Origin: Luteitalea sp.
GTDB taxonomy: Bacteria; Acidobacteriota; Vicinamibacteria; Vicinamibacterales; CAVVIG01
DNA length: 37,810 nucleotides
Direction: 5' to 3'
Assembly: GCA_009380045.1 (NCBI GenBank)
Contig: WHSN01000017.1
Location: 1-37,810 of the forward strand
Shown: in pieces, positions 10,924-36,412 of the stretch
Position numbering within the stretch: position 1 is the stretch's first letter
Layout: each line of letters opens with the position of its first letter
Notes under the pieces: generated by a model
Told to the model about the DNA's origin: nothing
Databases searched by the model: none
The model's input: only the letters and a program-made list of their open reading frames with translations
Made by a program: the position numbers and the translations under genes

Positions 10924-12972
10924 ATGATGAGCGATTCGCGGTGGCGCCTGATCGGCGTGGTTGTGGTAGTCGTGGGCGCGGTCCTCTCCGGGCGGGCGCA
11001 GACCGGCCCGGTCCCTTCGACCTCTCGCGGCGAGTGGCCCACTTACGGCGGCGATCTGGCCAGCACGAAATACTCGCCGCTCGATCAGATCACCGGTGAC
11101 AACTTCGCGTCGCTGAAGATCGCGTGGCGCACGAAATCGCCTGACGCGTCGCTCAGCATGACGCTCGAAGGCGGCGGCGAATGGCAGGCCGACTCGAAGA
11201 CGATCTTCGGCGAGCTGAACCGGATCAACCCGAAACGCTGGCGCGACGGCCAGCCGCCGTTCATTGGCAACTTCAAGGCGACGCCGTTGATGGTGAACGG
11301 ATCTCTCTACGTCAACTCGCCGGCGTCGGTCGGGGCTGCGCTCGACGCGAAAACCGGCGCCGTGCGATGGGTCTACAACCCCAAGAGCTACGAGGCCGGG
11401 ACGACGACGATGAGCGCGCGCTGGAACCAGCGGGGCGTGGCGTACTGGACCGACGGGACCGAGGAGCGGATTTACTGGGGCACCGGCGACGGATATCTCG
11501 TTTCGGTCGACGCGAAGACCGGTCGGCCCGTACCCGGGTTCGGCGTCAATGGCCGCGTCGACCTGATGGAAGGCGTTCCTCGCGCCAAGCGCGGGGATCG
11601 CGACTACCTGAACGCGCTCACCTACTCGGTGCAGTCGCCGCCGCTCGTCGTGCGCGACGTCGTGATCACGCCGGCGTCGATCTCGTCCCTGGTGAGCAAG
11701 AAAGAACAGATTCCGGGTCATATCCGCGCGTTCGACGTTCGCACGGGGAAGGTGAAGTGGACCTTCAAGACGATCCCGTCGCCCGGTGAGTTCGGCAACG
11801 AGACCTGGGAGAACGACTCGTGGTCCTACTCGGGCAAGGTGACCGTCTGGTCGATGATGAGCGCCGACCCGGAGCTCGGATACGTCTATCTTCCCACCAA
11901 CACCGTCGCTCCCGACTACTACGGCGGCCACCGTCTCGGCGACAACCTTTTCGCCGAAAGCGTCCTGTGCCTCGACGTCGAGACCGGCAAGCGGGTCTGG
12001 CACTTCCAGACCGTTCACCACGGTCTCTGGGACTACGACAACCCGGCGGCGCCGAACCTGCTCGACGTGAACGTGAACGGCAAGCCGATCAAGGCGGTGG
12101 CGCAGATCACCAAGCAGGGCTTCGTCTACACGTTCGATCGCGTGACCGGCGCGCCGGTGTGGCCGATGGAAGAACGGCCGGTGCCTCCCTCCGATGTCCC
12201 TGGCGAGCGGGCGGCGCTGACGCAACCGTTCCCAACCCGGCCCGCGGCGTTCGAGTATCAGGGCGTCACGGTGGACGATCTGGTGGACTTCACACCCGAG
12301 ATTCGCGCCATGGCCGAGAAGTCGATTCAGGCCTTCAAGATCGGCCCCCTGTTCACACCGCCGTCGACTCAGGGCACGATCCAGCGGCCCGGCACCGGTG
12401 GCGGCGGCAACTGGTCGGGCGCGGCCGTCGATCCGACAACAGGAAGGCTTTACGTGCCGTCGCGGCACGCCTGGGCCGTGAATCGCGTCGTGCCGCCAGA
12501 GCCGGAGCTGAAGAGCAATCTCCGCTACGTGCAGCGGCAGCGGGGAACCGCGGCGCTGCCGCAGGGGCTGCCGCTCTTCAAGCCCCCGTACTCGCGCATG
12601 ACCGCAATCGACATGAACACAGGCGCGCACGCGTGGATGGTTCCGACCGGGAATGGCGACCGTACGCGGAACATTCCCCTCCTCAAGCCGCTGAACCTGC
12701 CGCCGGTCGGAGGCGACGCCACGCTGAGCGGCCCGCTGCTGACGAGAACCGTGCTCGTTCACGCGCTCACCGCCGGCGGCAGCGACAACGGCCCTCGTCT
12801 GGTCGCGTACGACAAGGCGACCGGCAAGACGCTCGGGTCCGCCGATCTGCCTGGCACGCCGATCGGAACGCCGATGACCTACTCGGTGGCGGGGAAGCAA
12901 TACATCGCACTCACCGTGCAGCCTCAGCCGACCGGCGAGATGCCGGAGGTGGTGGCGCTTACCCTCCCGTAG
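10924..12972 (+). CDS. Exported PQQ-dependent dehydrogenase (quinoprotein, glucose/alcohol dehydrogenase-like)
   Basis: The product is 682 residues with a signal sequence (hydrophobic core LIGVVVVVVGAVLSG, cleavage near GRAQ) and a GAGGAGAG site 6 bases before ATG 10924. It is an eight-bladed beta-propeller expected to oxidise an alcohol or sugar in the periplasm and feed electrons to quinone. Typical pieces are WPTYGGDLASTKYSPLDQI, repeated tryptophan-docking blades (LDAKTGAVRWVY, FDVRTGKVKWTF, LDVETGKRVWHF), TVHHGLWDYDNPAAPNLL, GGGNWSGAAVDPTTGRLYVP and a final propeller-closing region. There is no C-terminal heme c motif, so electrons must leave by another carrier. The WDYD signature carries Gly where many relatives have Asp (HHG versus HHD). 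It is likely its own transcription unit. Confidence 0.88.
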   Translation: MMSDSRWRLIGVVVVVVGAVLSGRAQTGPVPSTSRGEWPTYGGDLASTKYSPLDQITGDNFASLKIAWRTKSPDASLSMTLEGGGEWQADSKTIFGELNRINPKRWRDGQPPFIGNFKATPLMVNGSLYVNSPASVGAALDAKTGAVRWVYNPKSYEAGTTTMSARWNQRGVAYWTDGTEERIYWGTGDGYLVSVDAKTGRPVPGFGVNGRVDLMEGVPRAKRGDRDYLNALTYSVQSPPLVVRDVVITPASISSLVSKKEQIPGHIRAFDVRTGKVKWTFKTIPSPGEFGNETWENDSWSYSGKVTVWSMMSADPELGYVYLPTNTVAPDYYGGHRLGDNLFAESVLCLDVETGKRVWHFQTVHHGLWDYDNPAAPNLLDVNVNGKPIKAVAQITKQGFVYTFDRVTGAPVWPMEERPVPPSDVPGERAALTQPFPTRPAAFEYQGVTVDDLVDFTPEIRAMAEKSIQAFKIGPLFTPPSTQGTIQRPGTGGGGNWSGAAVDPTTGRLYVPSRHAWAVNRVVPPEPELKSNLRYVQRQRGTAALPQGLPLFKPPYSRMTAIDMNTGAHAWMVPTGNGDRTRNIPLLKPLNLPPVGGDATLSGPLLTRTVLVHALTAGGSDNGPRLVAYDKATGKTLGSADLPGTPIGTPMTYSVAGKQYIALTVQPQPTGEMPEVVALTLP

Positions 12973-13292: not shown

Positions 13293-14270
13293 TCAGCGTT
13301 GCTGCTGTGGGCTCGGCGCGCCGGCTTTCTCCTGAACGCGAGCGCCCTTCAGGATGCCCTCCATGGCGTAGTTGCCCTCATGGCAGGCGTATTCGAAGAT
13401 GCTGATGCCGTCCGTCTGGCGCCGCATCGGCCGTGACACGGTCCACGGTTTCGTGAATGTCGTGGCGTCGTTGACCGTGAACTGGTAGTCGAGGGTGTTG
13501 GCGTCGAGCGGGGTATAGCGTTCGACCAGCTTCAGGGTGTCGCGCGACCCTCTGTAGCTCGTTTTCGGGTCGAAATTCGTCGTTTCGACGACCAGCGTAT
13601 TCCCTTCCCAGCGCCCGCGTGAGTCTCCCAGCCACTGGCCGACGCCTTGCGGGAGATGTGGACGTCCATCCAACGGGATGATGCGGGGTTCGTGGATGAG
13701 CTCCTGCAGCACCACGACGTAGCCGGGCGACTGAAAGATCTGATAGTTGCTGCTGTACCAGCTGCCGATACCGTTCCAGCCGCGCGAGATGCAGCGCGTC
13801 CACAGGCTCAGATCCGCGTAGGTGTCCGCCGGACCGCGCTGGCTCCTCGCCGCTCGCTCGGCGACGGCCCGCTTCTCGGCTTCCGGCGTCAGGGGAGGTA
13901 CCCTGCCGTCCGACGGATCGATGATCAGCGACGTTCGCGTCAGGCCCTTTCCTTCGTCACGCCAGAAGGCATTGTAGGTTCCGGGATCGCCGGCCCTCGG
14001 AGCTTCATCGAAGCTTTGTCGCGCCTCGTTCTCCAGCGTCTCGGCTTCCTCGTCCGAAAGCTCCTGCTTCCCGGCAAGCTCGCCTGTCAGAGGTCGTTCG
14101 AGCGGCGTGGAGGTCTGGCTGTTCCACTGCCCCTGGATGTCCGGATCGCCCCATGATGTCTTGGGCGGCGTCCACTTGGCCCCGGTCTGGCCGGACACTG
14201 GCGCCGACAGCCAGACGAAAGCAACCGCGATGACCAGGCCGGAGATTGACGCGAGCAACCCCTTCCGCAT
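13293..14270 (-). CDS. Exported protein, GDPD(I/L)QG-W family, unknown function
   Basis: The product is 325 residues from ATG 14270, which has GAGG 8-11 bases upstream. An ATG 21 bases earlier lacks a ribosome-binding site. The signal peptide is MRKGLLASISGLVIAVAFVW, cleaved near VSGQ. Conserved blocks shared with the protein at 30558-31604 are SWGDPDIQGQWN, APRAGDPGTYNAFW, LWTRCISRG, IHEPRIIPLDGRPHLP, GDSRGRWEGNTLVVETTNF and EYACHEGNYAMEGIL. Two Cys (in RCISRG and YACHEGNY) are conserved between the two. There is no known catalytic motif. The many Trp, Asp and Glu residues suggest a beta-rich binding or hydrolytic domain, which is inference. It lies downstream of its distant paralog at 14316 in the same direction. 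Confidence 0.75.
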   Translation of the reverse strand: MRKGLLASISGLVIAVAFVWLSAPVSGQTGAKWTPPKTSWGDPDIQGQWNSQTSTPLERPLTGELAGKQELSDEEAETLENEARQSFDEAPRAGDPGTYNAFWRDEGKGLTRTSLIIDPSDGRVPPLTPEAEKRAVAERAARSQRGPADTYADLSLWTRCISRGWNGIGSWYSSNYQIFQSPGYVVVLQELIHEPRIIPLDGRPHLPQGVGQWLGDSRGRWEGNTLVVETTNFDPKTSYRGSRDTLKLVERYTPLDANTLDYQFTVNDATTFTKPWTVSRPMRRQTDGISIFEYACHEGNYAMEGILKGARVQEKAGAPSPQQQR

Positions 14271-14287: not shown

Positions 14288-14324
14288 TCATATGGCTACT
14301 GACCGTCTCATATGGCTACTGACC
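14288..14324. repeat. Short tandem duplication (17-base unit, 20-base period)
   Basis: TCATATGGCTACTGACC occurs at 14288-14304 and again at 14308-14324 without mismatch. The second copy covers the stop codon of the 14316-15158 gene. The first covers an ATG that is in frame with, but upstream of, the chosen start of the 13293-14270 gene. It looks like a small slippage or duplication event at the gene junction. Confidence 0.85.
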
Positions 14325-15158
14325 CGACGTCGGCTTTTTCACCAGATGCCCGTACATCAATTCTTCGACGAACTCGACGCACTTGTACTCGACCAGTTGC
14401 GCGTTCTGCTCCATGCGACGGTAGATCGGCATACTCATCTTCCACGGGCGCGTATACAACTGGGGATCCTCGATGGTGACCTCGTAACGCAGCATGTCTG
14501 GGCCCGTCGGCGTGAACCGCTCGACCACGTGCAGGGTCTCGCTCTGGAAATTACCGGCGCGATCGAACCAGCTCTGGCCGTTGAAGCTCGTCACATCGAC
14601 GACGAGCGTGTCGCCGTCCCAGCGGCCGCGCGACCATCCCATCCACGTGTCGGTCGGACTCTCGGCCTTGCTGTTCATGCGAATGATCCGGCTGGCGCTG
14701 GCGAACTCGTAGGTGACCAGGATATCCGTGGCCGCGCCCGCCTGCACGATCTGGAAGGGATACGGCATATACGTCGCGCGCGGCAGTCCCGGCATGTAAC
14801 ACTTGATTTCAGGATCTGCCGTCAGCCACTGTGCTGCGTTCTGCTTCTGTTTCGCCAGCGCCTCCGGTTTGTACGGGATCGCGTCGCCTTCGACGACGCC
14901 CAACCCGCCCGGAACGCTGAAGGCCGCGCCGAGCGCCATGACCGGACCCTGCCGTGCCTTGTGCGTGAGAACGTCCCAGTTGGCCGTGTTGTTGACCTGC
15001 CAGATGCCGTTCAGATTGGGTTTGCCGTCAGCCATCCGTCGCACCCCGGCCGCCGGCGACTGAGCTGTCGTGAAGGTTGCCGCGACGGCGATCGCGGCGA
15101 TCGCGGCGGCCGCCGCGCCGATGGTCGCCGCGGGTCCACGACCACGCCAAATGTTCAT
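14316..15158 (-). CDS. Exported protein of the DTLVVDVT/FTRPW family, unknown function
   Basis: The product is 280 residues. GAGGAGAG sits 8 bases before ATG 15158. An Ala-rich signal peptide (MNIWRGRGPAATIGAAAAAI and following) ends near TTAQS. The mature protein opens with GKPNLNGIWQVNNTANWD, the counterpart of GDPD-QG-W in its relatives. It then carries YMPYPFQIVQ, TWMGWSRGRWDGDTLVVDVT, FDRAGNFQSETLHVVERFTP, EDPQLYTRPWKMSMPIYRR and YKCVEFVEELMYGHL. The same block order as in the proteins at 13293 and 30558 shows common descent, though this is a more divergent subgroup. A decayed sister copy lies at 12984-13292. It is divergent from the CRTAC-type gene across a 245-base gap. Confidence 0.75.
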   Translation of the reverse strand: MNIWRGRGPAATIGAAAAAIAAIAVAATFTTAQSPAAGVRRMADGKPNLNGIWQVNNTANWDVLTHKARQGPVMALGAAFSVPGGLGVVEGDAIPYKPEALAKQKQNAAQWLTADPEIKCYMPGLPRATYMPYPFQIVQAGAATDILVTYEFASASRIIRMNSKAESPTDTWMGWSRGRWDGDTLVVDVTSFNGQSWFDRAGNFQSETLHVVERFTPTGPDMLRYEVTIEDPQLYTRPWKMSMPIYRRMEQNAQLVEYKCVEFVEELMYGHLVKKPTSGQ

Positions 15159-24121: not shown

Positions 24122-27100
24122 ATGAGACACGCAAGCCTCGCGCGACCGAGCGTCGTGAGTATTGTGGCCGTCGTGTGTTTGCTCGCGGCGCCCGCGTGGG
24201 CGCAGGCGCCGACGAGCGGCATTGCCGGCGTGGTGCGCGATACGTCTGGGGCGGTCCTGCCCGGCGTGACGGTTGAAGCCGCCAGTCCTGCCTTGATCGA
24301 ACAGGTCCGCGTCGTCACGACCGACGGCCAGGGCCGGTACAACGTCGTCGATCTGCGGCCGGGCGTTTACAGCGTCAGCTTCGCCCTGCCCGGCTTCAGC
24401 ACCATCCGGCGGACCGGTATCGAGTTGAGCACAGGCTTCACGGCGTCGGTCAACGTCGAGATGACCGTCGGGGCTCTCGAGGAGACGATTACCGTGGCCG
24501 GCGCTGCCCCGCAGGTGGACGCGCAGAGCGTCCGGCAGCTGACGGTGGTGAGGAAGGAGTCGCTCGACGCGCTGCCGCTCGGCCAGGCGAGCACGAGCTC
24601 GTTCGTGGCGCTCATTCCGGGGATGTCGGACGCCGGGAAGGTCGATATCGGCGGTACGGGCGGCCACTGGGAAGGAGGGCGGGCCACGTACGGCACCTAC
24701 CACGGCAAGCGTGGGCTCAGGACGACCTTCGACGGCATGCGGACGCAGAACACCGGGACCGGACAGGCGCCGGGCTACACCGTGAACACGCATTTCGTGC
24801 AGGAAGTGTCGCTCGAGACCGGCGGCCTCACGGCGGAAGGCTCCTCCACGGGGATGGCGATGAACATGGTTCCCAAGGATGGCGGCAACAGCTTCAGTGG
24901 CCTGTTCGCCGGCAAGTACATGAACAAGAGCATGCAGAGCAGCAATCTGACCGACGCGCTGCGTGAGCGCGGCATGACGACGGACCAGAAGGTCAGCAAG
25001 CTCGAAGATATCGGAGGGTACGTCGGCGGTCCCATTCGGCAGGACCGGTTGTGGTTTTATGCCGGCGCCCGGAGGTGGGGGTTCGACAGGCAGATTCCCG
25101 GTCTCTTTGAGAATGCGACGCTCGGCACGATGTTCTACACGGCAGATCCGAGCCGGCCAGTGATCTTCGATGAGTTGAATCAGTCGTACGGGGGGCGCCT
25201 CACGTGGCAGGCATCGACGAAGAACAAGGTCGGTTTCTTCGTGGACTACCAGGACCTCTGGGGATCTCACGGCCGTGCCGGGAGCCCGACAACGGCTCCA
25301 GAAGCGCAGAATCCACAACGCCTCCGGCCGAGCGGAATCGTGCAGGGCACGTGGCAGTCGGTCCGGACGAGCAAGCTCCTGCTCGAGGCGGGCGCAGGGT
25401 GGATGATCTGGCACAACCACAGCGGCCTGCAGCCGTCAGTGTCGCAAGACGCCATTTCCATCATGGAGCAATCGACCGGCATGAGGTACAACGCACCCCA
25501 GACGTACTACGGGGGCGGCGACTGGAGCGATCCCTGGGTCGTTGACCGGTACGTCCAGCGGTTCGGCGCGTCCTACGTCACCGGCTCCCACAACTACAAA
25601 GTCGGGATCCAGTTGGAGCAGGGCGACATCCGCGGAGGCGTCCGAAGGAGCACCGGTCCGAATGGCGGCGCCCTGTCGTACACGTTCAATAATGGCATTC
25701 CGGTATCCCTCCGGATGGACAACACGCCGTTCGAAGAAAAGGCGAAGATGGGCGCGGATCTCGGGCTCTACGCCCAGGACCAGTGGACCATCGACCGGCT
25801 GACGGTGAGTTATGGCCTCCGCTTCGAGTACTGGAACGGCGAGGTGCCCGCGCAGACGGTGCCCGCCACCCGGTTCCTGCCCGAGCGCGCATTCGAGGCG
25901 GTGCGCGACGTACCCAGCTACAAGGATCTCAACCCGCGTTTTGGCGCGGCCTACGACCTGTTCGGTAACAGCCGGACGGCTCTCAAGGTGTCACTGGGCC
26001 GATACTCCGACCTGACCGGGGTCTTCTATACCCAGGTCAACGATCCGCAGCGAACCTCGATCAGCTCGGTCACCCGGGCGTGGAACGACTCGTTCTTCGG
26101 CCCCGGCGATCCGCGCACTGGAAACTTCGTCCCGGACTGCGATCTCAATAATTTCGGGGTGAACGGCGAGTGCCGCCAGATCAACAACAGCGCCTTCGGA
26201 CAGTTCAATCCAAACACTGTTCGCTTTTCCGACGAGGTCATGCGCGGCTGGCACAAGCGCAAGTACACATGGGATATCGCGGCGGAGGTGCAGCACCAGA
26301 TTACCCAGGGGCTGTCGATGACCGCGGGGTATTACCACAACTGGGATGGCAACGTGCGGGCGCTCGTGAACGAGGCGGTGACCCCCGCGGACTACGACCC
26401 CTACTGCATCACGACGCCGGCCGATTCGCGGCTGCCCGGCGGCGGCGGCCAGCAGGTGTGCGGTCTCTATAACATCAACGAAGCGAAATTCGGCCAGGTT
26501 GCGGATGTGTGGGTGCAGTCGAACAACTACGGGAAGGGCTCGACGCGCGTCTCAGATTTCGTCTCCCTTGCAGCGGATGTACGCCTGTCCTCGGGTATCC
26601 GTTTCGGTGGCGGCGTGGACACGGGACGAACCGTCAACGACACGTGCTTCGTCATCGATTCCCCACAAGCGACTCGTATCGTCAGCGTGACGGCGAACGT
26701 CGGCGAACGAGCGGTTGAGCAGCGGTTCTGCCATGAGGTCCTCGATTTGATGGCCAACCTGCAGATCAAATTCAATTCGGTTGTGCCGCTGCCCGGCGGC
26801 TTCACGACGAGCATCACGTTCCAGAACCTGACGGGTGACGAAATTCAGGCGAACTACACGGCGACCTCCGCGCAGATTCGACCCTCGCTGGGCCGACCGC
26901 TGTCGGGCGGCGTGAACACCGTCTCGATACCGCTGATCGCACCCGGAACGGAGTTCGAGGAACGGCGCACGCAGGTCGATCTGCGGCTCACCCGGACCTT
27001 CGCGGTAGGTCCGACACGTCTCGAGGCCAACGCCGAGTTGTACAACATCTTCAACGCGAATTCGGTGTTTGCGCCCAACGCCGCTTATGGTCCATCGTGG

Positions 27101-27163
27101 CTGCAGCCGGCGAGTGTTGTGCCTGGCCGCATGCTCCAGCTTGGCGGCAAGCTGACCTTCTGA
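24122..27163 (+). CDS. TonB-dependent receptor, Oar-like, with carboxypeptidase-regulatory-like domain
   Basis: The product is 1013 residues from ATG 24122, with GGAGGTG 5 bases upstream. An earlier ATG at 24089 would put residues before the signal. The signal peptide is about residues 1-28 (VVSIVAVVCLLAAPAWAQA). Residues about 33-118 form a carboxypeptidase-regulatory-like beta-sandwich (SGIAGVVRDTSGAVLPGVTV, GRYNVVDLRPGVYSVSFALP). A plug domain follows (EETITVAGAAPQVDAQSVRQ), then a long beta-barrel with aromatic-rich strands, ending in LQLGGKLTF with a terminal Phe as outer-membrane barrels require. It imports an unknown ligand using TonB energy. Many loops are large, suiting a bulky substrate. 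A strong hairpin lies just downstream, so it is probably monocistronic. Confidence 0.9.
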   Translation: MRHASLARPSVVSIVAVVCLLAAPAWAQAPTSGIAGVVRDTSGAVLPGVTVEAASPALIEQVRVVTTDGQGRYNVVDLRPGVYSVSFALPGFSTIRRTGIELSTGFTASVNVEMTVGALEETITVAGAAPQVDAQSVRQLTVVRKESLDALPLGQASTSSFVALIPGMSDAGKVDIGGTGGHWEGGRATYGTYHGKRGLRTTFDGMRTQNTGTGQAPGYTVNTHFVQEVSLETGGLTAEGSSTGMAMNMVPKDGGNSFSGLFAGKYMNKSMQSSNLTDALRERGMTTDQKVSKLEDIGGYVGGPIRQDRLWFYAGARRWGFDRQIPGLFENATLGTMFYTADPSRPVIFDELNQSYGGRLTWQASTKNKVGFFVDYQDLWGSHGRAGSPTTAPEAQNPQRLRPSGIVQGTWQSVRTSKLLLEAGAGWMIWHNHSGLQPSVSQDAISIMEQSTGMRYNAPQTYYGGGDWSDPWVVDRYVQRFGASYVTGSHNYKVGIQLEQGDIRGGVRRSTGPNGGALSYTFNNGIPVSLRMDNTPFEEKAKMGADLGLYAQDQWTIDRLTVSYGLRFEYWNGEVPAQTVPATRFLPERAFEAVRDVPSYKDLNPRFGAAYDLFGNSRTALKVSLGRYSDLTGVFYTQVNDPQRTSISSVTRAWNDSFFGPGDPRTGNFVPDCDLNNFGVNGECRQINNSAFGQFNPNTVRFSDEVMRGWHKRKYTWDIAAEVQHQITQGLSMTAGYYHNWDGNVRALVNEAVTPADYDPYCITTPADSRLPGGGGQQVCGLYNINEAKFGQVADVWVQSNNYGKGSTRVSDFVSLAADVRLSSGIRFGGGVDTGRTVNDTCFVIDSPQATRIVSVTANVGERAVEQRFCHEVLDLMANLQIKFNSVVPLPGGFTTSITFQNLTGDEIQANYTATSAQIRPSLGRPLSGGVNTVSIPLIAPGTEFEERRTQVDLRLTRTFAVGPTRLEANAELYNIFNANSVFAPNAAYGPSWLQPASVVPGRMLQLGGKLTF

Positions 27164-27639: not shown

Positions 27640-30537
27640 ATGCCGTCGAGAGCAATCGCGTGCGTGTTCGTGTCGCTCCTCCTGGCGTTCAGTTCGACGC
27701 TCGCCGCGCAGACGGTGAGAACCGGATCGATCACGGGAACGGTGACCGATGAAAGCAAGAGCGCCCTGCCCGGTGTGACTGTCACGGTGACCGGGCCGGC
27801 GCTGCAAGTTCCGCAAATCGTTCAGGTGAGCGACGAGCGAGGTGACTACGCGATCAACGATCTACCTCCAGGCACCTACCAGATCGTGTTCGAGCTCACC
27901 GGCTTCGGAAGGTTGATCCGGCAGGGCATCGTGCTGACCACCGGGTTTGTCGCGCGGATCGATCAGGCGCTGAAGATTGCATCGGTTGAAGAGACCGTGA
28001 CCGTGACGGGACAAAGCCCCCTGGTTGACGTCGAGACGACCAGGGGTGGTGCGACGGTCAGCAGCGAGGTCCTCACGGCGATCCCGAACAACCGGAACTA
28101 TCAGGACATCCAGAACCTGACGCCTGGAATGGTCACAGTGGTGCCGCCTCAGCCGGGCGTGATCGGGATGAAGGGGGAGGCCAACGGGTTCAAGAACTAC
28201 GGCTTGAGCGGCAACGAGCGGACCACCATCGAAGGCATCGACATGCACTCGAACGAGAATCCCGACTTCGCGGCGGTCGAAGAGGTGGACGTCAAGACCT
28301 TTGGCAACACCGCCGAAGTGCCGACACCCGGGGCGGCGATCCAGCTGATCGTCAAGTCTGGCGGCAACGAATTCCACGGTCGCTACCACGAACAGTACAT
28401 GACCGACAAGCTGCAGTCGAACAACATCGACGCGTCCTTGAAGGCGCAAGGGATCGCGGCTGGCGATGCCGCCGTGTACTACCAGGATTTCTCTGGCGAT
28501 CTCGGCGGCCGGATCGTCCGCGATCAGCTGTGGTTCTACGGTGCGATTCGGGACAAGCGCAGCAAGCGGACCTTGCCGGGGTACTCCGCCGATCCGGGAC
28601 CGGATGGCGCCTACGGAAACGCGGACGATACCACCGGGCGTCCGGTCGTCATCGAAAAGGATCAGCTAGTCAAGCTCTCGTACCAGCCATCGCCAAAGCA
28701 CCGGTTCGTCGGGTTCTATTCGCGGAACAAGTGGGACGAGAAACAGTTCATCGGCAACGCCGTCGGCACGGCGCGTTTCTCGCCGGTGGAAGCCACGCCG
28801 TACCTCCGCTACTACAACTATCAGACGAAGGGCGAGTGGAACGGGACGCTGAGCGATCGACTGCTCGTCAACGTCCTGTTCGGCAACGGCTGGTACGTCG
28901 CCGAGTACACCAACGAGTGCGGCATCCCCGATCGGGCGCCCTGTACGCCAGGGAAACCCGCGGCGATCGATCTCGCGACCCAGATTCTGACCGGCACTCC
29001 GTATGTGAACGGGCTGTTCCGCCGACCGCGCGATCGTTATCAGTTGGCCGGCACACTCAGCTATTACCCGGAGAGCTTTCTCGGCGGCTCCCATGAGTTC
29101 AAAGTGGGCTATACGCAGTGGTGGGAACGGTTGGAGCTCTCCATCCCTGACCGCGGCGCGGCCGGCAACTACCAGCTGCAATTCGACGGCGGCGCGCCCA
29201 GCCGCCTGGTCACCGCAAACTTCCCGGTGGACGGGAAGGCAGCGACCGACAGCAACGCCGCCTTCATCACCGATAACTGGCGCGCGACCAGACGCCTGAC
29301 CGTCAACGTCGGGCTGCGGGCGGAGTACTCGGATGCGTATGTCCCGCCCCAGACCAAGGTCCAGGGGGTCTTCGGCACCTCAGGCACCTTCGACCGGATC
29401 GAGGGCGGAACGTGGTTCACCTGGGCGCCGCGTGGCGGATTCGCCTTCGACGTGACCGGGAACGGCAAGACGGTCGTCAAGGGGACGTACGGCTGGTACA
29501 ACGAGCTGCTCTCGGATGGCTTCGCCAACGCCTACAACCCGAACACCCAGACCAGCACGACCTACCGGTGGCGCGACCTGAACAACGACAACTTGTACCA
29601 GGAAGGAGAAGTGGACCTGAGCCTCAACGGCCAGGACTTCATCAACGTCACCGGGGGCAGCACGACCATCCCGAATCTCGATCTGAGAAAGCCGCACGTG
29701 CACGAAGTGACCGGGTCGATCGAGCGCGAGTTCGCTGGAACGATGTCGATCCGCGGCCTCTATGTCTACAAGACGGAAATCGACCGCACGTCCACCGTGA
29801 ACACACTCAGACCCTACAGCGCCTACTCGATTCCGGTGACCCGCAGGGATCCAGGGCCCGACGGCGTCTACAACACCGGCGACGACGGCGGGCTGGTCAC
29901 GCTGTGGGACTACACGGCGGCCTACAGGGGCGGCGCGTTCGTGCGCAATCAGATCGTCAATCCCGATCCGTCAAGAAACGATCGCTTCGACTCGTTCGAG
30001 GTGACGCTGGTCAAGCGCCCGTCCACGAGCCGGTGGTTTGCCACGACGGCGTTTCTCTTGACGAAGAATCACCGCTACCTGGTGACAGCCATTCAGAGTC
30101 CCAACGACGAGGTGTTTGCCGTCGACGACACGTGGGAGTGGAATTATCGCCTGGCGGCTGCGTATCGCGCTCCGGCAGATGTGAATATCTCGTCCCTGTT
30201 CACCTTGACCAACGGTCGGCCTGGCCAACGTACGTACATCTTTCGCGGCACCGATGCGGTGGGAGGTGCGCCGATCACCAACACCGGGAATATCACCCAG
30301 CGGCTCGAGCCGTTCGGTTCCCAGCGAGGCCCGGTGCGCCCGAACTGGAATCTCAAGCTGTCGAAAGGCTTTCGGCTGCAGCAGGCACAGCGGATATCAC
30401 TCGATTTCGACCTGCTGAACGTGCTGAACTCGAATCCATCCTGGAACACCAACTATGCCTCGGGTCCGGCATTCGGGCTCATCACCTCCGTGCAACCGCC
30501 GCGCATCGCGCGGTTCGGTGTCGCGTATGAGTTTTGA
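27640..30537 (+). CDS. TonB-dependent receptor, Oar-like (second copy)
   Basis: The product is 965 residues from ATG 27640, with AAGGAGG about 7 bases upstream. A GTG at 27625 is an unlikely alternative because it overlaps that site. The signal peptide is residues 1-23 (SLLLAFSSTLAAQ). The carboxypeptidase-regulatory-like domain spans about residues 28-110 (GSITGTVTDESKSALPGVTV, DYAINDLPPGTYQIVFELTG). The plug starts at EETVTVTGQSPLVDVETTRG. The barrel ends RIARFGVAYEF with a terminal Phe. It is clearly a paralog of the receptor at 24122 but not a recent duplicate. It leads an operon with an exported GDPD-family protein, a tannase-type esterase and a YceI-like protein, which suggests import of an ester-containing, possibly phenolic, compound. 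Confidence 0.9.
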   Translation: MPSRAIACVFVSLLLAFSSTLAAQTVRTGSITGTVTDESKSALPGVTVTVTGPALQVPQIVQVSDERGDYAINDLPPGTYQIVFELTGFGRLIRQGIVLTTGFVARIDQALKIASVEETVTVTGQSPLVDVETTRGGATVSSEVLTAIPNNRNYQDIQNLTPGMVTVVPPQPGVIGMKGEANGFKNYGLSGNERTTIEGIDMHSNENPDFAAVEEVDVKTFGNTAEVPTPGAAIQLIVKSGGNEFHGRYHEQYMTDKLQSNNIDASLKAQGIAAGDAAVYYQDFSGDLGGRIVRDQLWFYGAIRDKRSKRTLPGYSADPGPDGAYGNADDTTGRPVVIEKDQLVKLSYQPSPKHRFVGFYSRNKWDEKQFIGNAVGTARFSPVEATPYLRYYNYQTKGEWNGTLSDRLLVNVLFGNGWYVAEYTNECGIPDRAPCTPGKPAAIDLATQILTGTPYVNGLFRRPRDRYQLAGTLSYYPESFLGGSHEFKVGYTQWWERLELSIPDRGAAGNYQLQFDGGAPSRLVTANFPVDGKAATDSNAAFITDNWRATRRLTVNVGLRAEYSDAYVPPQTKVQGVFGTSGTFDRIEGGTWFTWAPRGGFAFDVTGNGKTVVKGTYGWYNELLSDGFANAYNPNTQTSTTYRWRDLNNDNLYQEGEVDLSLNGQDFINVTGGSTTIPNLDLRKPHVHEVTGSIEREFAGTMSIRGLYVYKTEIDRTSTVNTLRPYSAYSIPVTRRDPGPDGVYNTGDDGGLVTLWDYTAAYRGGAFVRNQIVNPDPSRNDRFDSFEVTLVKRPSTSRWFATTAFLLTKNHRYLVTAIQSPNDEVFAVDDTWEWNYRLAAAYRAPADVNISSLFTLTNGRPGQRTYIFRGTDAVGGAPITNTGNITQRLEPFGSQRGPVRPNWNLKLSKGFRLQQAQRISLDFDLLNVLNSNPSWNTNYASGPAFGLITSVQPPRIARFGVAYEF

Positions 30538-30557
30538 CGCGTGAGGGAGGATTCACC

Positions 30558-31604
30558 ATGAACCGTCGATATGTCTCGCTAATCGGTATGGCGACGGCCG
30601 CCGTCGCGGTCGTCGCGACGCCGCCGGTGCCACTCGCGGGCCAGAGCGCGCCGCCCAGTTCGAACAGGACACCGATCGGGAACATTGGCGGTCCAGTGAG
30701 GACAGCGTGGGGCGATCCTGACTTGCAGGGCATATGGAACGCGTCGGGAGCGACCCCGATGGAACGACCGGCAGCGTTGGAGGGAAGGACGACTCTGACC
30801 GACGAAGAGGTCGCGCAATTGGAGAGCGCCGACCAGGCTCGCGCCGATCGCGCTCCCCGGGCCGGCGACCCTGGCACCTACAACGCCTTCTGGACCGACC
30901 GTGGACGCCGCAGCGGGCAAACCTCGATGGTGGTGGATCCACCGGACGGGAAGTTTCCGCCGCTCACCGCAGTCGGCCAGCAGGCCCAGAAGAGCCGGGC
31001 CCGCGGCGCCGACTCATGGGAGGATCGGCATCTGTGGGAACGCTGCATTACGCGCGGAGGAATGCCGAACGCGATGTTTCCCCGGGCGTACAACAACAAC
31101 GCTCAGATTTTTCAGACTCCTGAGTACGTGGTGATCCTCCTCGAGGAGATCCACGAAACGCGCATCATCCCGCTGGATGGACGAGCCCATCTGCCGCAGC
31201 AGGTCCGCCAATGGATGGGAGACTCACGCGGCAGTTGGGAGCAGGATACGCTGGTCGTAGACACCACCAATATCGCCGGCAAGGTGAGCGCGCTCCAGCC
31301 GTGGGCCAACTTCAATTCGATCGACGGCTCCCAGCAGACATTGCACACGGTCGAGCGCTTCCGGCGCGTCGACGCGAACACCATCTCGTACACGATCACA
31401 GTCAACGATCCTCAGATGTACACGAGGCCCTGGACCGTCGAGTTTCCAATGGAGAAGACGGCGGAGCTGCTGTACGAATACGCATGTCATGAAGGAAACT
31501 ACGGCATGTTCGGTATCCTCACCGGCGGCCGCGCTGATGAAAAAGTCAACCCGGAAGCCGCCAGCAGTGGACAGCCGGGCGCGCCGGAACGGAGGCCTCG
31601 ATGA
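30558..31604 (+). CDS. Exported protein, GDPD(I/L)QG-W family, unknown function
   Basis: The product is 348 residues from ATG 30558, with GAGGGAGG 7 bases upstream, 20 bases after the receptor stop. The signal peptide covers about residues 1-28 (MATAAVAVVATPPVPLAGQS). Blocks shared with the protein at 13293-14270 are AWGDPDLQGIWNASG, APRAGDPGTYNAFW, LWERCITRGG, IHETRIIPLDGRAHLP, MGDSRGSWEQDTLVVDTTN and YEYACHEGNYGMFGIL. The shared Cys residues are in RCITRG and YACHEG. No established catalytic motif is visible. Its stop overlaps the tannase-like gene start by four bases, so the two are translationally coupled and probably act on the same pathway. Confidence 0.8.
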   Translation: MNRRYVSLIGMATAAVAVVATPPVPLAGQSAPPSSNRTPIGNIGGPVRTAWGDPDLQGIWNASGATPMERPAALEGRTTLTDEEVAQLESADQARADRAPRAGDPGTYNAFWTDRGRRSGQTSMVVDPPDGKFPPLTAVGQQAQKSRARGADSWEDRHLWERCITRGGMPNAMFPRAYNNNAQIFQTPEYVVILLEEIHETRIIPLDGRAHLPQQVRQWMGDSRGSWEQDTLVVDTTNIAGKVSALQPWANFNSIDGSQQTLHTVERFRRVDANTISYTITVNDPQMYTRPWTVEFPMEKTAELLYEYACHEGNYGMFGILTGGRADEKVNPEAASSGQPGAPERRPR

Positions 31605-33223
31605 GTCATCGCATCGTCGCGTCATTGTCAATCGGCGCCGCCATGGCGATCGTGGCCGGCGCGGTCGTCACCGTCGCCGGTCAGGACGGCGCCAGGGGGG
31701 CCGGCGCGAAGATGGAATGCGCCGATTTGACCAGCCTGACATTCGAGGGACAGACCACCATCGCAGCAGCCAGCCTTGTCCCCGCCGGGCCGTTCGTCAC
31801 GCCCGCGGGTCAGACATTGACTGGACTCCCGGCGTTCTGCCGCGTGGTTGGGGTCAGCCGGCCGACCAGCGACTCGAACATCAACTTCGAGGTCTGGTTG
31901 CCTTCCAGTTCCTGGAACGGCAAGTTCCTGTCGTCGGGTGAAGGCGGTTACGCGGGGACACTCAACTACACCCGGTCGGGACTGGATGGCGGCCTGGACG
32001 AGCTGATTCGACGGGGTTATGCGACCGCGTCCACCGATACCGGCCATCTTTCCTCAGACAACGATTGGGCAATTGGCCATCCGGAAAAGGTCATCGACTA
32101 CGCGTATCGCGCGAAGCACCTGGTGACGGTCGCCGCCAAGGGGGTGGTCGCGGCGTTCTACGGCAAGCCCGCGAGCTATTCGTATTTCAATTCCTGTTCG
32201 AACGGCGGACGGCAAGGACTGATGGAGGTGCAGCGGTATCCCGAAGACTACGACGGGGTGGTCGTCGGCGCCCCGTGGAATTTTCAGTCGCATTCGAATG
32301 CGGGATTCGTCTGGGATGCCCAGGCGCTGGGCGCGGCGGGTGCGGAGATACCCCCCGCCAAGTTGCCGGCGATTCAAGCGGCTGCGATCGCCGCCTGCGA
32401 CGCCGACGACGGTCTCGCCGACGGCCTGATCGAGGATCCGAGCACGTGCGCGTTCGAACCGGCGACACTGCTGTGCAAAGGGGCTGACGCCGACACCTGT
32501 CTGACCGCGGCGCAGGTCACGGCGCTTGGCAAGCTGTACGACGGCCCAAAGAACCCGCGCACCGGCGCGCAGATCTATCCGGGCTGGGCCCGAGGCGGCG
32601 AGATGGGCTGGGCGCGATCGGTCGTCGGCCGTGACGTCACGAACCTGGGTCGCACCTACTTTTCGCGCCTGGTGTTCGAGAACCCGGCATGGGACTACCG
32701 CACCTTCAACTTCGACACCGATCTGTCGCTGGCTGAGTCGAAGGTCGGCAAGCTCGCAGATGCCATCGAACCGAATCTCTCGGCCGCGAAGCGGCAGGGC
32801 GCGAAAATCATCCAGTATCACGGGTGGAACGACCAGACGTTGCAACCCGGCAACAGCCCTGCGTATTATGAGCGTGTGATCGCGGCAATGGGCGACCTCG
32901 CGAACACGCAAGACTTCTACAGACTGTTCATGGTTCCGGGCATGGCACACTGCTACTTCGGCCCCGGTGCCAGCAGTTTCGGAGGAGTGGGGCAGCAGCG
33001 CCCGCCAGCCCGGGATGCCCTTCACGATGTTCAGACCGCTCTGGAGAACTGGGTGGAAAAAGGCGTCGCGCCGAATCAGCTCGTCGCCACCAAGTACATC
33101 GACGACGCTGCCGCGACATCGACGGTCAAACTGACGCGGTTGCTGTGTCCCTATCCGTCGGTGGCTCGCTACAAATCTGGCAGCCCAAACGATGCGAGCA
33201 GCTTCGTTTGCACGACGCCATGA
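31601..33223 (+). CDS. Tannase/feruloyl esterase-family hydrolase, exported
   Basis: The product is 540 residues with a signal peptide (SLSIGAAMAIVAGAVVTVAGQ). It is an alpha/beta-hydrolase that should cleave esters of phenolic acids such as galloyl or feruloyl esters. The family CS-D-HC arrangement is complete: nucleophile S200 in FNSCSNGGRQG preceded by C199, D411 in YHGWNDQ, and H450 followed by C451 in PGMAHCYFG. C199 and C451 are positioned to form the disulfide that ties the catalytic Ser and His regions together in this family. Also typical are WNGKFLSSGEGGYAG and GYATASTDTGH. A lid-like insert occupies about residues 235-330. Substrate choice between tannins, feruloyl esters and others cannot be read from sequence. 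Its ATG overlaps the previous stop. Confidence 0.9.
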   Translation: MSHRIVASLSIGAAMAIVAGAVVTVAGQDGARGAGAKMECADLTSLTFEGQTTIAAASLVPAGPFVTPAGQTLTGLPAFCRVVGVSRPTSDSNINFEVWLPSSSWNGKFLSSGEGGYAGTLNYTRSGLDGGLDELIRRGYATASTDTGHLSSDNDWAIGHPEKVIDYAYRAKHLVTVAAKGVVAAFYGKPASYSYFNSCSNGGRQGLMEVQRYPEDYDGVVVGAPWNFQSHSNAGFVWDAQALGAAGAEIPPAKLPAIQAAAIAACDADDGLADGLIEDPSTCAFEPATLLCKGADADTCLTAAQVTALGKLYDGPKNPRTGAQIYPGWARGGEMGWARSVVGRDVTNLGRTYFSRLVFENPAWDYRTFNFDTDLSLAESKVGKLADAIEPNLSAAKRQGAKIIQYHGWNDQTLQPGNSPAYYERVIAAMGDLANTQDFYRLFMVPGMAHCYFGPGASSFGGVGQQRPPARDALHDVQTALENWVEKGVAPNQLVATKYIDDAAATSTVKLTRLLCPYPSVARYKSGSPNDASSFVCTTP

Positions 33224-33253
33224 AGGCGCGCGATCATCGCTCTTTTAAGATTC

Positions 33254-33259
33254 AGGAGA
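33254..33259 (+). promoter_or_regulatory. Ribosome-binding site that decides a TTG start
   Basis: AGGAGA at 33254-33259 is 8 bases before TTG 33268. The only other reasonable start, ATG 33220, overlaps the previous stop but lies upstream of this site and would put about 16 non-signal residues before the signal peptide. Confidence 0.55.
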
Positions 33260-33267
33260 TAGCGAAT

Positions 33268-34023
33268 TTGAAAACTTACGTTGCTCTTTGTGTGCTGGTC
33301 GCCGGTATCACCGTGGCGACACTGAACGATTCAGAGACGGTCCTGGCGAGCGCGGCCGGACCTGGTCGGGACAATGCATTGGCGGGGCAGACTGCCGCCC
33401 CGCCCGGCGGAGGCGCGGCGCCACCGCAAGGAGCGCCCCCGGCGGCGCGGCCACCGCTGGCGACATTCGATACGACCAAGCCGGCAAAGCTCGACATTGT
33501 CGAGGCCAAGGGCACCTACAGGGTGCAGGAACAGCTGGTCGGGATCAATTTCATGAGTGATGCCGTGGCGCCGACCGACAAGGTCACCGGCACCCTGATA
33601 TTCGCGCCGGACGGCTCGATGGGCAGCGGGTCGAAGATCTCAGTGGACCTGCGAACGCTGACGAGCGATCAGGAGACGCGCGACAACTACCTCCGCACTC
33701 GAACGCTCGAAACCGACAAATACCCGATGCTCGAGTTCGTGCCGAAGCGTACCCAGGGGCTTCCGACGCCGCTGCCCAGCCCGCCGCAGGCGCAGGCGCT
33801 CGGGTTTCAACTCATCGGCGATCTCACGCTTCACGGAGTCACTAAAGAAGTGGCGTGGAGCGCGATTGTCACGCTTCGTGGCGCCACCGTCGCCGGTCGC
33901 GCCACGACCAGCATTCTCTTCGCAGACTTCAAGCTTCCAAAGCCGTCTGTTGCCCTGCTGTTGAGCGCCGACGAAAAAATTCAGCTCGAGGTCGACTTCA
34001 GGCTGACGCGATCGGTCCTGTGA
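33268..34023 (+). CDS. YceI-like exported protein (lipocalin-like, isoprenoid-binding type)
   Basis: The product is 251 residues from TTG 33268 (alternative ATG 33220, 267 residues). The signal segment is MKTYVALCVLVAGITVATL. A Pro/Gly/Ala-rich linker (APPGGGAAPPQGAPPAARPP) precedes the YceI domain from about residue 85. The domain shows VTGTLIFAPDGSMGSGSKIS, VDLRTLTSDQETRDNYLRT, LETDKYPMLEFVPKRT, GDLTLHGVTKEVAWSAIV and FADFKLPKPSV, in the order expected for the beta-barrel that binds polyisoprenoid or other amphiphilic ligands in the periplasm. It is the last gene of the receptor-esterase operon and could carry a hydrophobic product or a quinone. A convergent gene ends 63 bases beyond. Confidence 0.88.
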   Translation: MKTYVALCVLVAGITVATLNDSETVLASAAGPGRDNALAGQTAAPPGGGAAPPQGAPPAARPPLATFDTTKPAKLDIVEAKGTYRVQEQLVGINFMSDAVAPTDKVTGTLIFAPDGSMGSGSKISVDLRTLTSDQETRDNYLRTRTLETDKYPMLEFVPKRTQGLPTPLPSPPQAQALGFQLIGDLTLHGVTKEVAWSAIVTLRGATVAGRATTSILFADFKLPKPSVALLLSADEKIQLEVDFRLTRSVL

Positions 34024-34086: not shown

Positions 34087-34872
34087 TCAGGGAACCACGA
34101 CCGAGCGGTTGATCCACAGGATGTTGTCCCAGCTCAACATCTGCTCCGTTCCGTCGAACAGCTTCGCGTAGCTGCCACCCCCGCCCTTGAACGTGAACTC
34201 TTTCACGCGATCGGGCGGTGTGGTGGTCACGTTCTTCAGGATGTCGAGCACCTGCTCCTGTTTCGAGATCTGGAAGAACGTCGGGGTCTTGGCGGAATAG
34301 AACTTCGGTTCCGACGGGTTCCCCTTGTTCGCGACGCCGCGTTCGAACTTGATGTGCATTTCCAAGCGCTCGCCCCCCGCCGCGGCGAACACCCAGTCCT
34401 GCGAATCGAGGATCGGTCCGGTGCTGCTCGACGTGGATCGCTGCATCGTATGCGTCGTCGCCAGCAGATAATTGCCGAACGGGCCAGGCGCGTCGGCGGG
34501 ATCCTCCGTCAGGCCGCCAATCACCAGCTGCGCGTTCGCGCCGCTCTGGTCCTTTACCGGTACGGCGAGGTACACCAGCCGGTTGCTGCCTTTCCCGACC
34601 GGCTTTCCGTCCGGGCCGTTGATCGTGACGCGATCGACGAAGATGACGCGCAGGTTGCAGTCCTTCGCCGGACCCTGGGTTGCGACGTTCATCGCCCAAC
34701 CGGCGGGCAGGAACGAGGTGACGGCGGCGTCCGGAACCCGGACGTCGAGCTGAAACCGCGCTTCGTGGCTGTATTCCACCAGGCTCTCCGCCCGCGCGTA
34801 CAACCCGCAAGCGGCGATCGCCACCAACGCCGATAGCACCCCGGTTACTCCGCGGACACGCTGCACTGTCAT
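34087..34872 (-). CDS. Exported protein of unknown function
   Basis: The product is 261 residues from ATG 34872, with GGGAGGACG about 6 bases upstream. A longer frame to 34953 would include the upstream gene end. The signal peptide is GVLSALVAIAACGLYARAE. The mature protein begins LVEYSHEARFQLDVRVPDAA, then SFLPAGWAMNV, NLRVIFVDRVTINGPDGKPV, LVYLAVPV, ILDSQDWVFAAAGGERLEMH and, near the end, LSWDNILWINRSVVVP. The opening resembles small-molecule-binding proteins of an acetoacetate-decarboxylase-like type, but no catalytic Lys is evident and I do not assign the family. It lies 55 bases downstream of the MBL-fold lipoprotein gene on the same strand and is probably co-transcribed. Confidence 0.7.
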   Translation of the reverse strand: MTVQRVRGVTGVLSALVAIAACGLYARAESLVEYSHEARFQLDVRVPDAAVTSFLPAGWAMNVATQGPAKDCNLRVIFVDRVTINGPDGKPVGKGSNRLVYLAVPVKDQSGANAQLVIGGLTEDPADAPGPFGNYLLATTHTMQRSTSSSTGPILDSQDWVFAAAGGERLEMHIKFERGVANKGNPSEPKFYSAKTPTFFQISKQEQVLDILKNVTTTPPDRVKEFTFKGGGGSYAKLFDGTEQMLSWDNILWINRSVVVP

Positions 34873-34927
34873 ATCGTCCTCCCGGAAAATGGCTTCCCCG
34901 TGAACCGGATCGAAGCGGGACCCGCCG

Positions 34928-36412
34928 TCAATTCGTCGTCGTGGCCGCCGCACCGGCCGCCGCTCGCAGGTCCGCCAGCGTCGCGATCCGTGGACCGTGA
35001 AGCGCCGCGATCTGACGGACGTCCAGCTTCAGCCGCTGGATGTTCTCGTACAGGTTGACGGTATAGGGGTTCACCGTCGCCGGCGGCGGCGCGTTGGCCG
35101 CCGGAGGCGTATACGCGTCGACTTCGATCAGAATCCGCTCCCTCGGCAGATACACCATCGCAAACGCATCGTTGTGACCACCGCCGGCGATCTGATGAAT
35201 CTCGACCGGTCTGCGGCCGTCCGTCAGCACGTGCTTGTCGGTAAAGGTTTCGAACATGGCGTCCTTGGGCTCCTTCGCGAGCCGATCCGGATTGAGCGTC
35301 CGCGGCGCCGCCCATGCCTTCTCGTAGTACGGCTGGTTCATTTCGTGCGTGACGATGGTCGCGCCCTCGGCGACATAGGTGCGCAGCCCGCCCGAGTGAT
35401 CGAAATGGGCGTGCGAGTTGATCAGGTAGCGAATCGGCTTGTCCGGGATGATCTCCTTCACCTTGGCGATGACGGCGGTCGATCGCGCCTCATTCTGAGG
35501 CGCCTCGACGACGATGATGTGATCGCGTTGATCGATGGCGACGCTGTGGTGGCTGCCGCCCTTCAGGTAGTGAACGCCATCGGCCAGTTTCTCAACTTCC
35601 ACGGTGACGGCGGCGGGAGTCGCAGTGCGAACCTGGTCGGGGACAGTGATGTCCGCGGCCGGATTGGCGGTGACGCTCGAGACCGAGATCTCCAGGACGG
35701 GATGGTTCCCCTGAGTTCGCACGATCCTCGACGGGAACATCACGCCGCCAAAGTCCTGGTAGTCCGAATACACGATCTCGACGGGCGTGTCGCCAAGCAC
35801 CGTGTTGTCGAGCGTCGTCTGGACCCGTTCGACCTGATTCTGGGCGTTGATTTGGCCGACATAGCGGTACTTCCCGTTGATCGTGAACGACACTTCGGAG
35901 CCGCCATTCGCGGGTGCGGACGTGGCGTTGTTCGCGGCGGCCGCCTTCAAGAACCCGTGCGGAGTCGTCCAGATCTCCATGATCCGCTCCTCGACGGTGT
36001 CCGGCTGCGGCTGCGGTGCTGGCGCGGTGGCCGCCGCGGCGCCCGGCGCAGGCACCATGTTCCACGCGAAGCTGCCGCTGACGACCTGAACCGGCCGCTG
36101 CGTCACTGGGGTTGGGCGAACGCGCCCGGGCTCAACGACCTGGCTGCGCACCATCTGCACGCGCGCGGCAGGCGTTTCGTAGTTGATCGTCGCGGTGAAG
36201 CTGCTCACATCGAACGGCGGCCACGGAAGAGTCGGGTTCGGCGCTTGTCCAAACTGGAACCAGCGACCGGTGCCCGCGTATTCGATCCCAGTCAACTCCT
36301 GCGCGCCAAGCGCCTCGGTAGCTGCCTGCAGGGAACCCGCCGGCTCCTGGGAGGCACATGCCGGCAACACAGCGGTCGCAAGGAACAGCGTCAGAACTGA
36401 TACTGCACGCAT
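34928..36412 (-). CDS. Metallo-beta-lactamase-fold lipoprotein with N-terminal extra domain
   Basis: The product is 494 residues, with GGAGGTG 6 bases before ATG 36412. A lipoprotein signal (VLTLFLATAVLPAC, lipid Cys 19) anchors it in the envelope. Residues about 30-260 form a beta-rich domain (GTGRWFQFGQAPNPTLPWPP, YSDYQDFGGVMFPSRIVRTQ) like the outer-membrane lipoprotein-sorting or LolA-type folds. The MBL domain starts near DGVHYLKGGSHHSVAIDQ. The metal motif is H334-x-H336-x-D338-H339 (INSHAHFDHSGGL). GGGHNDAFAMVYLP carries a further His, and IEVDAY takes the place of the usual GDxY loop. An Ala/Pro/Gln linker (GAAAATAPAPQPQPD) lies inside the first domain. The substrate is unknown. Confidence 0.85.
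   Translation of the reverse strand: MRAVSVLTLFLATAVLPACASQEPAGSLQAATEALGAQELTGIEYAGTGRWFQFGQAPNPTLPWPPFDVSSFTATINYETPAARVQMVRSQVVEPGRVRPTPVTQRPVQVVSGSFAWNMVPAPGAAAATAPAPQPQPDTVEERIMEIWTTPHGFLKAAAANNATSAPANGGSEVSFTINGKYRYVGQINAQNQVERVQTTLDNTVLGDTPVEIVYSDYQDFGGVMFPSRIVRTQGNHPVLEISVSSVTANPAADITVPDQVRTATPAAVTVEVEKLADGVHYLKGGSHHSVAIDQRDHIIVVEAPQNEARSTAVIAKVKEIIPDKPIRYLINSHAHFDHSGGLRTYVAEGATIVTHEMNQPYYEKAWAAPRTLNPDRLAKEPKDAMFETFTDKHVLTDGRRPVEIHQIAGGGHNDAFAMVYLPRERILIEVDAYTPPAANAPPPATVNPYTVNLYENIQRLKLDVRQIAALHGPRIATLADLRAAAGAAATTTN

Follow-up and report, generated by a model that had tools for sequence, protein, structure and literature searches.

An expanded family of exported proteins with a predicted FABP-like barrel, one member encoded between an Oar-like receptor and a tannase-family esterase in Luteitalea

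In Sphingobium SYK-6, lignin-derived aromatics are taken up through the TonB-dependent receptor DdvT (PMC6874591). A CS-D-HC active site has been described for the esterases AoFaeB and MHETase (PMC6461665), and the Oar protein of Myxococcus xanthus secretes the protease PopC (PMC6434023). We analyzed a stretch of 37,810 nucleotides from Luteitalea sp., an acidobacterium (assembly GCA_009380045.1, contig WHSN01000017.1, positions 1 to 37,810 of the forward strand; hereafter the window). At 27640-34023 it has four co-directional open reading frames, coding for an Oar-like outer-membrane receptor, an exported protein of 348 residues, a tannase-family esterase, and a YceI-like protein. We found that the 348-residue protein belongs to a large, undescribed family.

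Like DdvT, the window receptor is an outer-membrane protein that may bring in an aromatic compound for catabolism. Unlike DdvT, it is Oar-like and its gene lies with those of a periplasmic esterase and a pair of exported barrel proteins, and transport is here a proposal. The window tannase shares with AoFaeB and IsMHETase, both in PF07519, the CS-D-HC site, a calcium-site-like loop, and a match over its whole length; it differs in being bacterial and encoded beside an outer-membrane receptor. As in M. xanthus Oar, a carboxypeptidase-regulatory-like N-terminus precedes the barrel of the window receptor. However, its barrel matches PF25183 while PF07715 and PF00593 are unmatched, and its partners appear to carry signal peptides. 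Models of the 348-residue protein and a relative resemble FABP/CRBP proteins and NanoLuc in having a barrel of ten strands, the first of which is followed by inserted helices. In contrast to those proteins, with which identity is 8-17%, the family has a lid of about 115 residues, a C-terminal helix, an invariant cysteine pair, and bacterial export.

The four genes, all with open frames at these coordinates, are:

27640..30537, + strand: Oar-like outer-membrane receptor, 965 residues (PF13620, PF25183; signal peptide)
30558..31604, + strand: exported protein of the expanded, undescribed family, 348 residues (no Pfam, NCBIfam or PDB relative; alignments; structure model)
31601..33223, + strand: exported esterase of the tannase/feruloyl-esterase family, 540 residues (PF07519; starts 4 bases inside the gene for the 348-residue protein)
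33268..34023, + strand: YceI-like exported protein, 251 residues (PF04264; TTG start with AGGAG upstream)

A first-pass annotation of this DNA had described a closely spaced run of these genes, with an Oar-like receptor, a tannase retaining a full CS-D-HC site, and a YceI-like product, and this description holds. The genes are spaced by 20, -4, and 44 bases, the last counted to the YceI TTG codon at 33268, and a good ribosome-binding site of the GGAGG/AGGAG type lies upstream of all four starts. An alternative YceI start, the ATG at 33220, has none. The three identities are borne out by Pfam matches and the catalytic set is complete (C199-S200, D411, H450-C451). The label given to the second gene fell: its product had been called GDPD-family, a misnomer as those letters merely occur in a WGDPDLQG motif. 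No phosphodiesterase domain model matched it, and we rejected a GDPD phosphodiesterase identity. G+C content is uniform, and the spacing by itself suggests that the four genes are co-transcribed.

To place the 348-residue protein, we compared it with Pfam and NCBIfam and found no match at E 0.01; its 90 aligned relatives likewise gave none at E 0.001. Neither the protein alone nor a profile of the 90-member alignment found a sequence relative in the PDB, the best profile matches (E 0.5-0.9) being noise, and a search for the family's motifs in the literature collection used returned nothing. Judged by the absence of any Pfam or NCBIfam model, the family is undescribed.

Structure prediction and a fold search, which had been proposed for the 30558-31604 product, gave a predicted FABP-like barrel. 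The AlphaFold2 model, built with 90 natural relatives, has a predicted local distance difference test score (pLDDT) of 83 and a predicted template modelling score (pTM) of 0.80. A second family member in the window (13293..14270), modelled from its own 57-row alignment, has the same architecture with a pLDDT of 84. In both models one strand is followed by a long helical insertion, nine strands, and a C-terminal helix, an order that would fit a ten-strand FABP-type barrel in which the lid following strand one is enlarged. The leading rows of the structure comparison were all FABP, CRBP, or NanoLuc, with Z of 8.2-8.9 for the 348-residue model and 9.1-9.9 for the second member, values that are modest yet higher than usual for orphan models. 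The best matches (Z 8.9 and 9.9) superpose with a root mean square deviation of about 3 Å over 112-117 residues, and the best Foldseek E for the 348-residue model was 1.4e-3. No Pfam or PDB sequence match ties the family to the FABP families, so the resemblance is of fold only. An enzyme family unlisted by Foldseek or VIA-align is not thereby excluded.

The only cysteines of the 348-residue protein are C163, which lies in the insertion, and C310, part of a YEYACHEGNY motif. Both are invariant among the 90 relatives, as are E196, G221, L232, E266, E307, and E312, while R162, R202, H311, and N314 are nearly so. A C163-C310 disulfide tying the lid to the C-terminus would be the simplest reading of the cysteine pair. 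A lipobox-like motif occurs in just 2 of 41 paralogues; members are thus, as a rule, exported unlipidated, and we rejected the idea of a lipoprotein family.

The Luteitalea genome (4.3 Mb, 90% complete) has 55 matches to the 348-residue protein. Gene calling brought these down to about 44 genes, comprising 36 long-form members and 8 that belong to a shorter subfamily, and a profile search of the genome found 45 matches. Among 20 relatives, seven genomes have no match, and two of these seven belong to the same taxonomic family as Luteitalea. The highest count per genome, 104, was reached in G012 and G019; every one of the 104 candidates scored there was a match, so the real count could exceed this or, should genes be split, fall somewhat short of it. 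At E 1e-20 the family is present in 38 of 297 genomes of the phylum. Most of the best 80 places in a separate collection are in Acidobacteriota; a small number are labelled as Gammaproteobacteria or other taxa. A plasmid collection yielded just three distant matches, all from Novosphingobium, two annotated as hypothetical protein and one unannotated. In a tree, 34 of the Luteitalea paralogues were spread over 22 distinct clades, intermingled with sequences from other genomes, and recent duplicates were few; the expansion is therefore mostly old or exchanged. In some Acidobacteriota genomes it ranks with the larger gene families (about 44 genes here, about 100 matches in some relatives), while being absent from others of the same taxonomic family. 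Its ligand or reaction would explain a visible share of the periplasm in abundant soil bacteria. Expanded, patchily distributed, unnamed, and with a predicted FABP-like barrel, it merits specialist attention.

We also examined which genes accompany the family, using selected genome stretches and a simple codon-score gene caller, with comparison genomes all from outside the genus. In the Luteitalea genome an Oar-like receptor adjoins 16 of the 44 family members. When labels were permuted within the same family-rich stretches the mean was 6.7, and at least 16 were reached in 2 of 5000 shuffles. The pairs are co-directional in 14 of 17 adjacencies, and in nine of them the receptor gene immediately precedes the family member, which is the order found in the window. 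At 80 loci of other genomes, receptors are much rarer beside the family than in the Luteitalea genome. There DUF6152 (PF19649) is the commonest partner, and in 25 of 31 cases its gene comes immediately after that of the family member on the same strand; PQQ-type quinoproteins come next. DUF6152, on which the literature collection used held no paper, is thus often directly 3' of a family member across Acidobacteriota, though none is encoded in the window; the Luteitalea genome has eight, and they stand beside the family on contigs C135, C112, C194, and C43 (a partial match on C43). The receptor excess here and its rarity elsewhere suggest that the receptor link is a feature of the lineage, while the DUF6152 link is wider. 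The association of the family with tannases and TonB-dependent receptors, on which the first-pass annotation had built, therefore survives in part. The family is mostly found apart from tannases (3 of about 44 members are near one here), and it shows a significant link to Oar-like receptors in its own genome but none in the phylum at large.

Two more members of the family are encoded in the window, as a pair that adjoins a PQQ-type quinoprotein gene at 10924-12972:

13293..14270, - strand: second family member, 325 residues (paralogue search; structure model)
14316..15158, - strand: member of the shorter subfamily, 280 residues (gene calling)

The receptor consists of an N-terminal carboxypeptidase-regulatory-like domain (PF13620, 1.6e-14, 54.4 bits), a plug-like region, and a beta-barrel (PF25183, 4e-37, 128.5 bits). 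It thereby has both parts that define the Oar-like class, an N-terminal PF13620 and an outer-membrane barrel. At E 0.01 it matched neither the plug PF07715 nor the barrel PF00593, the latter being matched by a paralogue on C167. In a pattern search, a TonB-box-like sequence, EETVTVTG, was seen at residue 117. About 50 matches in the genome are homologous to the receptor. One further Oar-like receptor (24122-27163, + strand) lies directly 5' of it and is about 31% identical over two thirds of the length. Relatives with 36-49% identity are encoded in 25 other genomes of the class, of which we inspected 38 stretches. A family member was two genes off in just one of the 38, and we rejected the idea that this receptor clade is conserved with the family. 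An Oar-like receptor with some exported hydrolase is a general arrangement that accepts any ester, amide, or peptide enzyme. A receptor/esterase operon alone is ordinary, one more receptor-plus-hydrolase cassette.

The tannase matches PF07519 at 1.6e-114 (383.9 bits against a cut-off of 29.8) over positions 1-489 of 490. It can be aligned along its whole length with feruloyl esterases of known structure (8bhh, 6fat, 3wmt) and with MHETase, its catalytic residues are in register with those of 8bhh, and a Ca-site-like CDADDGLADG is found at residue 266. From its sequence, the 31601-33223 product is a candidate esterase of the galloyl/feruloyl type, the class of ester being presumed. The YceI-like protein has a partial PF04264 match (1e-18, 68.6 bits against a cut-off of 23.7; positions 20-148 of 150) after a Pro/Ala-rich linker.

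Taken as a cassette, the Oar-like receptor would import an aromatic ester, or an oligosaccharide or lipid carrying one, across the outer membrane, and the exported serine esterase of the tannase family would cleave the ester in the periplasm. The two exported barrels, the FABP-like protein and YceI, would then bind or further modify the hydrophobic substrate or product. We tentatively favor such a locally assembled uptake-and-cleavage cassette, at somewhat short of an even chance, with the direction of transport and the binding role as its presumed parts. The short spacing with ribosome-binding sites, the intact esterase triad and disulfide pair, the excess of receptor adjacencies, and the predicted FABP-like fold of two paralogues are consistent with it. 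So are the place of all three tannase sequences of this genome near the family and a receptor, one of them also next to a carboxylate symporter gene, a comparable arrangement in G011, and the aromatic uptake known for DdvT. Receptor capture followed by periplasmic cleavage, as the first-pass annotation had it, is still the most likely reading, but not as a conserved four-gene system. The 348-residue protein is most likely a ligand-binding or ligand-modifying partner.

Several results weigh against the cassette, and some of them favor a chance meeting of four independently useful genes for exported proteins in an accessory catabolic region rich in receptors and in the family, sharing a promoter only. 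A search of Acidobacteriota for the order receptor, 348-residue family, tannase, YceI had been proposed as a check. The order was found in no other sampled genome, the set being absent from all 61 tannase neighbourhoods in other genomes of the class, and we rejected a conserved four-gene system for the sampled set. A family member lies within two genes of 4 of those 61 tannases, an Oar-like receptor of 3, and both of one. In this case, from G011, the tannase comes right after a receptor that is not an orthologue of the window's (27% identity), and family members stand to either side. The four closest tannase orthologues (65, 60, 60, and 58% identity) have none of the partner genes nearby. YceI is next to a tannase in the window alone among 21 genomes; in one other genome the two are about 4.6 kb apart on opposite strands. 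The receptor's relatives are flanked on either side by amidohydrolases, M28 peptidases, PQQ proteins, alpha-L-fucosidase, gamma-glutamyltranspeptidase, and others, with a tannase in G072 only, two genes away. No promoter or terminator consensus above chance was found at the four-gene locus. Tannase and family counts correlate over the 21 genomes (Spearman 0.50, p 0.02) with clear exceptions: G013 has 79 family matches and zero tannases, G015 nine tannase matches and zero family members. As the two occur independently, we rejected a tannase-specific role for the family.

The tannases of the Luteitalea genome itself, two whole and an N-terminal piece of 143 residues on C112, all three have a family member within two genes and an Oar-like receptor near. 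On C167 the tannase is followed by a family member on the opposite strand and then by a receptor on the tannase's own strand. On C112 (762-5641) a receptor, a family member, an SLC13-type carboxylate symporter (PF00939), and the tannase piece follow one another in one direction, with a DUF6152 match between the first two, possibly a decayed sister of the window operon. If genes were placed at random over the genome, proximity in all three cases would have a probability of about 9e-5. Within family-rich stretches it arose in 322 of 5000 shuffles, which is not significant, so that clustering of accessory genes can explain it. Such meetings are likely in a genome with some 44 members of the family and some 50 matches to the receptor. 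Still, the overlap of 4 bases and the short gaps argue against a chance neighbourhood, as do the receptor-adjacency excess and the presence of the family beside every tannase in this genome, and we regard chance as possible but doubtful. As a set of four, the genes are not conserved; what recurs in this genome is the pair of receptor and family member, which a tannase has joined. The claim of a four-gene system is weakened and that of an uncharacterized family strengthened and widened.

The receptor could, by analogy with Oar and PopC, export the co-encoded esterase or the 348-residue protein from the periplasm. It carries an N-terminal PF13620 as Myxococcus Oar does, and its relatives elsewhere are flanked by varied exported hydrolases. 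However, domain architecture alone cannot tell an importer from an exporter, the Oar type being found in 28% of TonB-dependent transporters, and PopC is suggested to lack the signal peptide that the esterase and the 348-residue protein appear to have. Export is thus improbable. The 348-residue protein might instead be an enzyme, a calycin-type barrel whose conserved polar centre converts the product of the esterase. Strict conservation of four glutamates (E196, E266, E307, E312) and near-invariance of R162, R202, H311, and N314 would be unusual for a protein that does no more than bind a range of ligands. PQQ-type quinoproteins and other enzymes are frequent neighbours elsewhere, and NanoLuc, an enzyme with its active site in the barrel, shares the fold. 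As no catalytic motif of a known family is present, we consider this specific conversion rather unlikely. For the family as a whole an enzymatic role may be about as likely as pure binding because the charged residues are strictly conserved. Returning to the cassette, a bolder extension would make the family a new exported, lid-bearing FABP-like class of substrate-specific partners of Oar-like receptors, expanded to about 100 paralogues per genome and giving some Acidobacteriota their substrate range. These would be a periplasmic counterpart of the SusD-like lipoproteins, which act outside the cell. We hold this extension to be unlikely.

Convergent to the operon, 34087-36412 (- strand) codes for a 261-residue protein without a Pfam match and a 494-residue protein whose C-terminal portion holds a metallo-beta-lactamase-fold domain.

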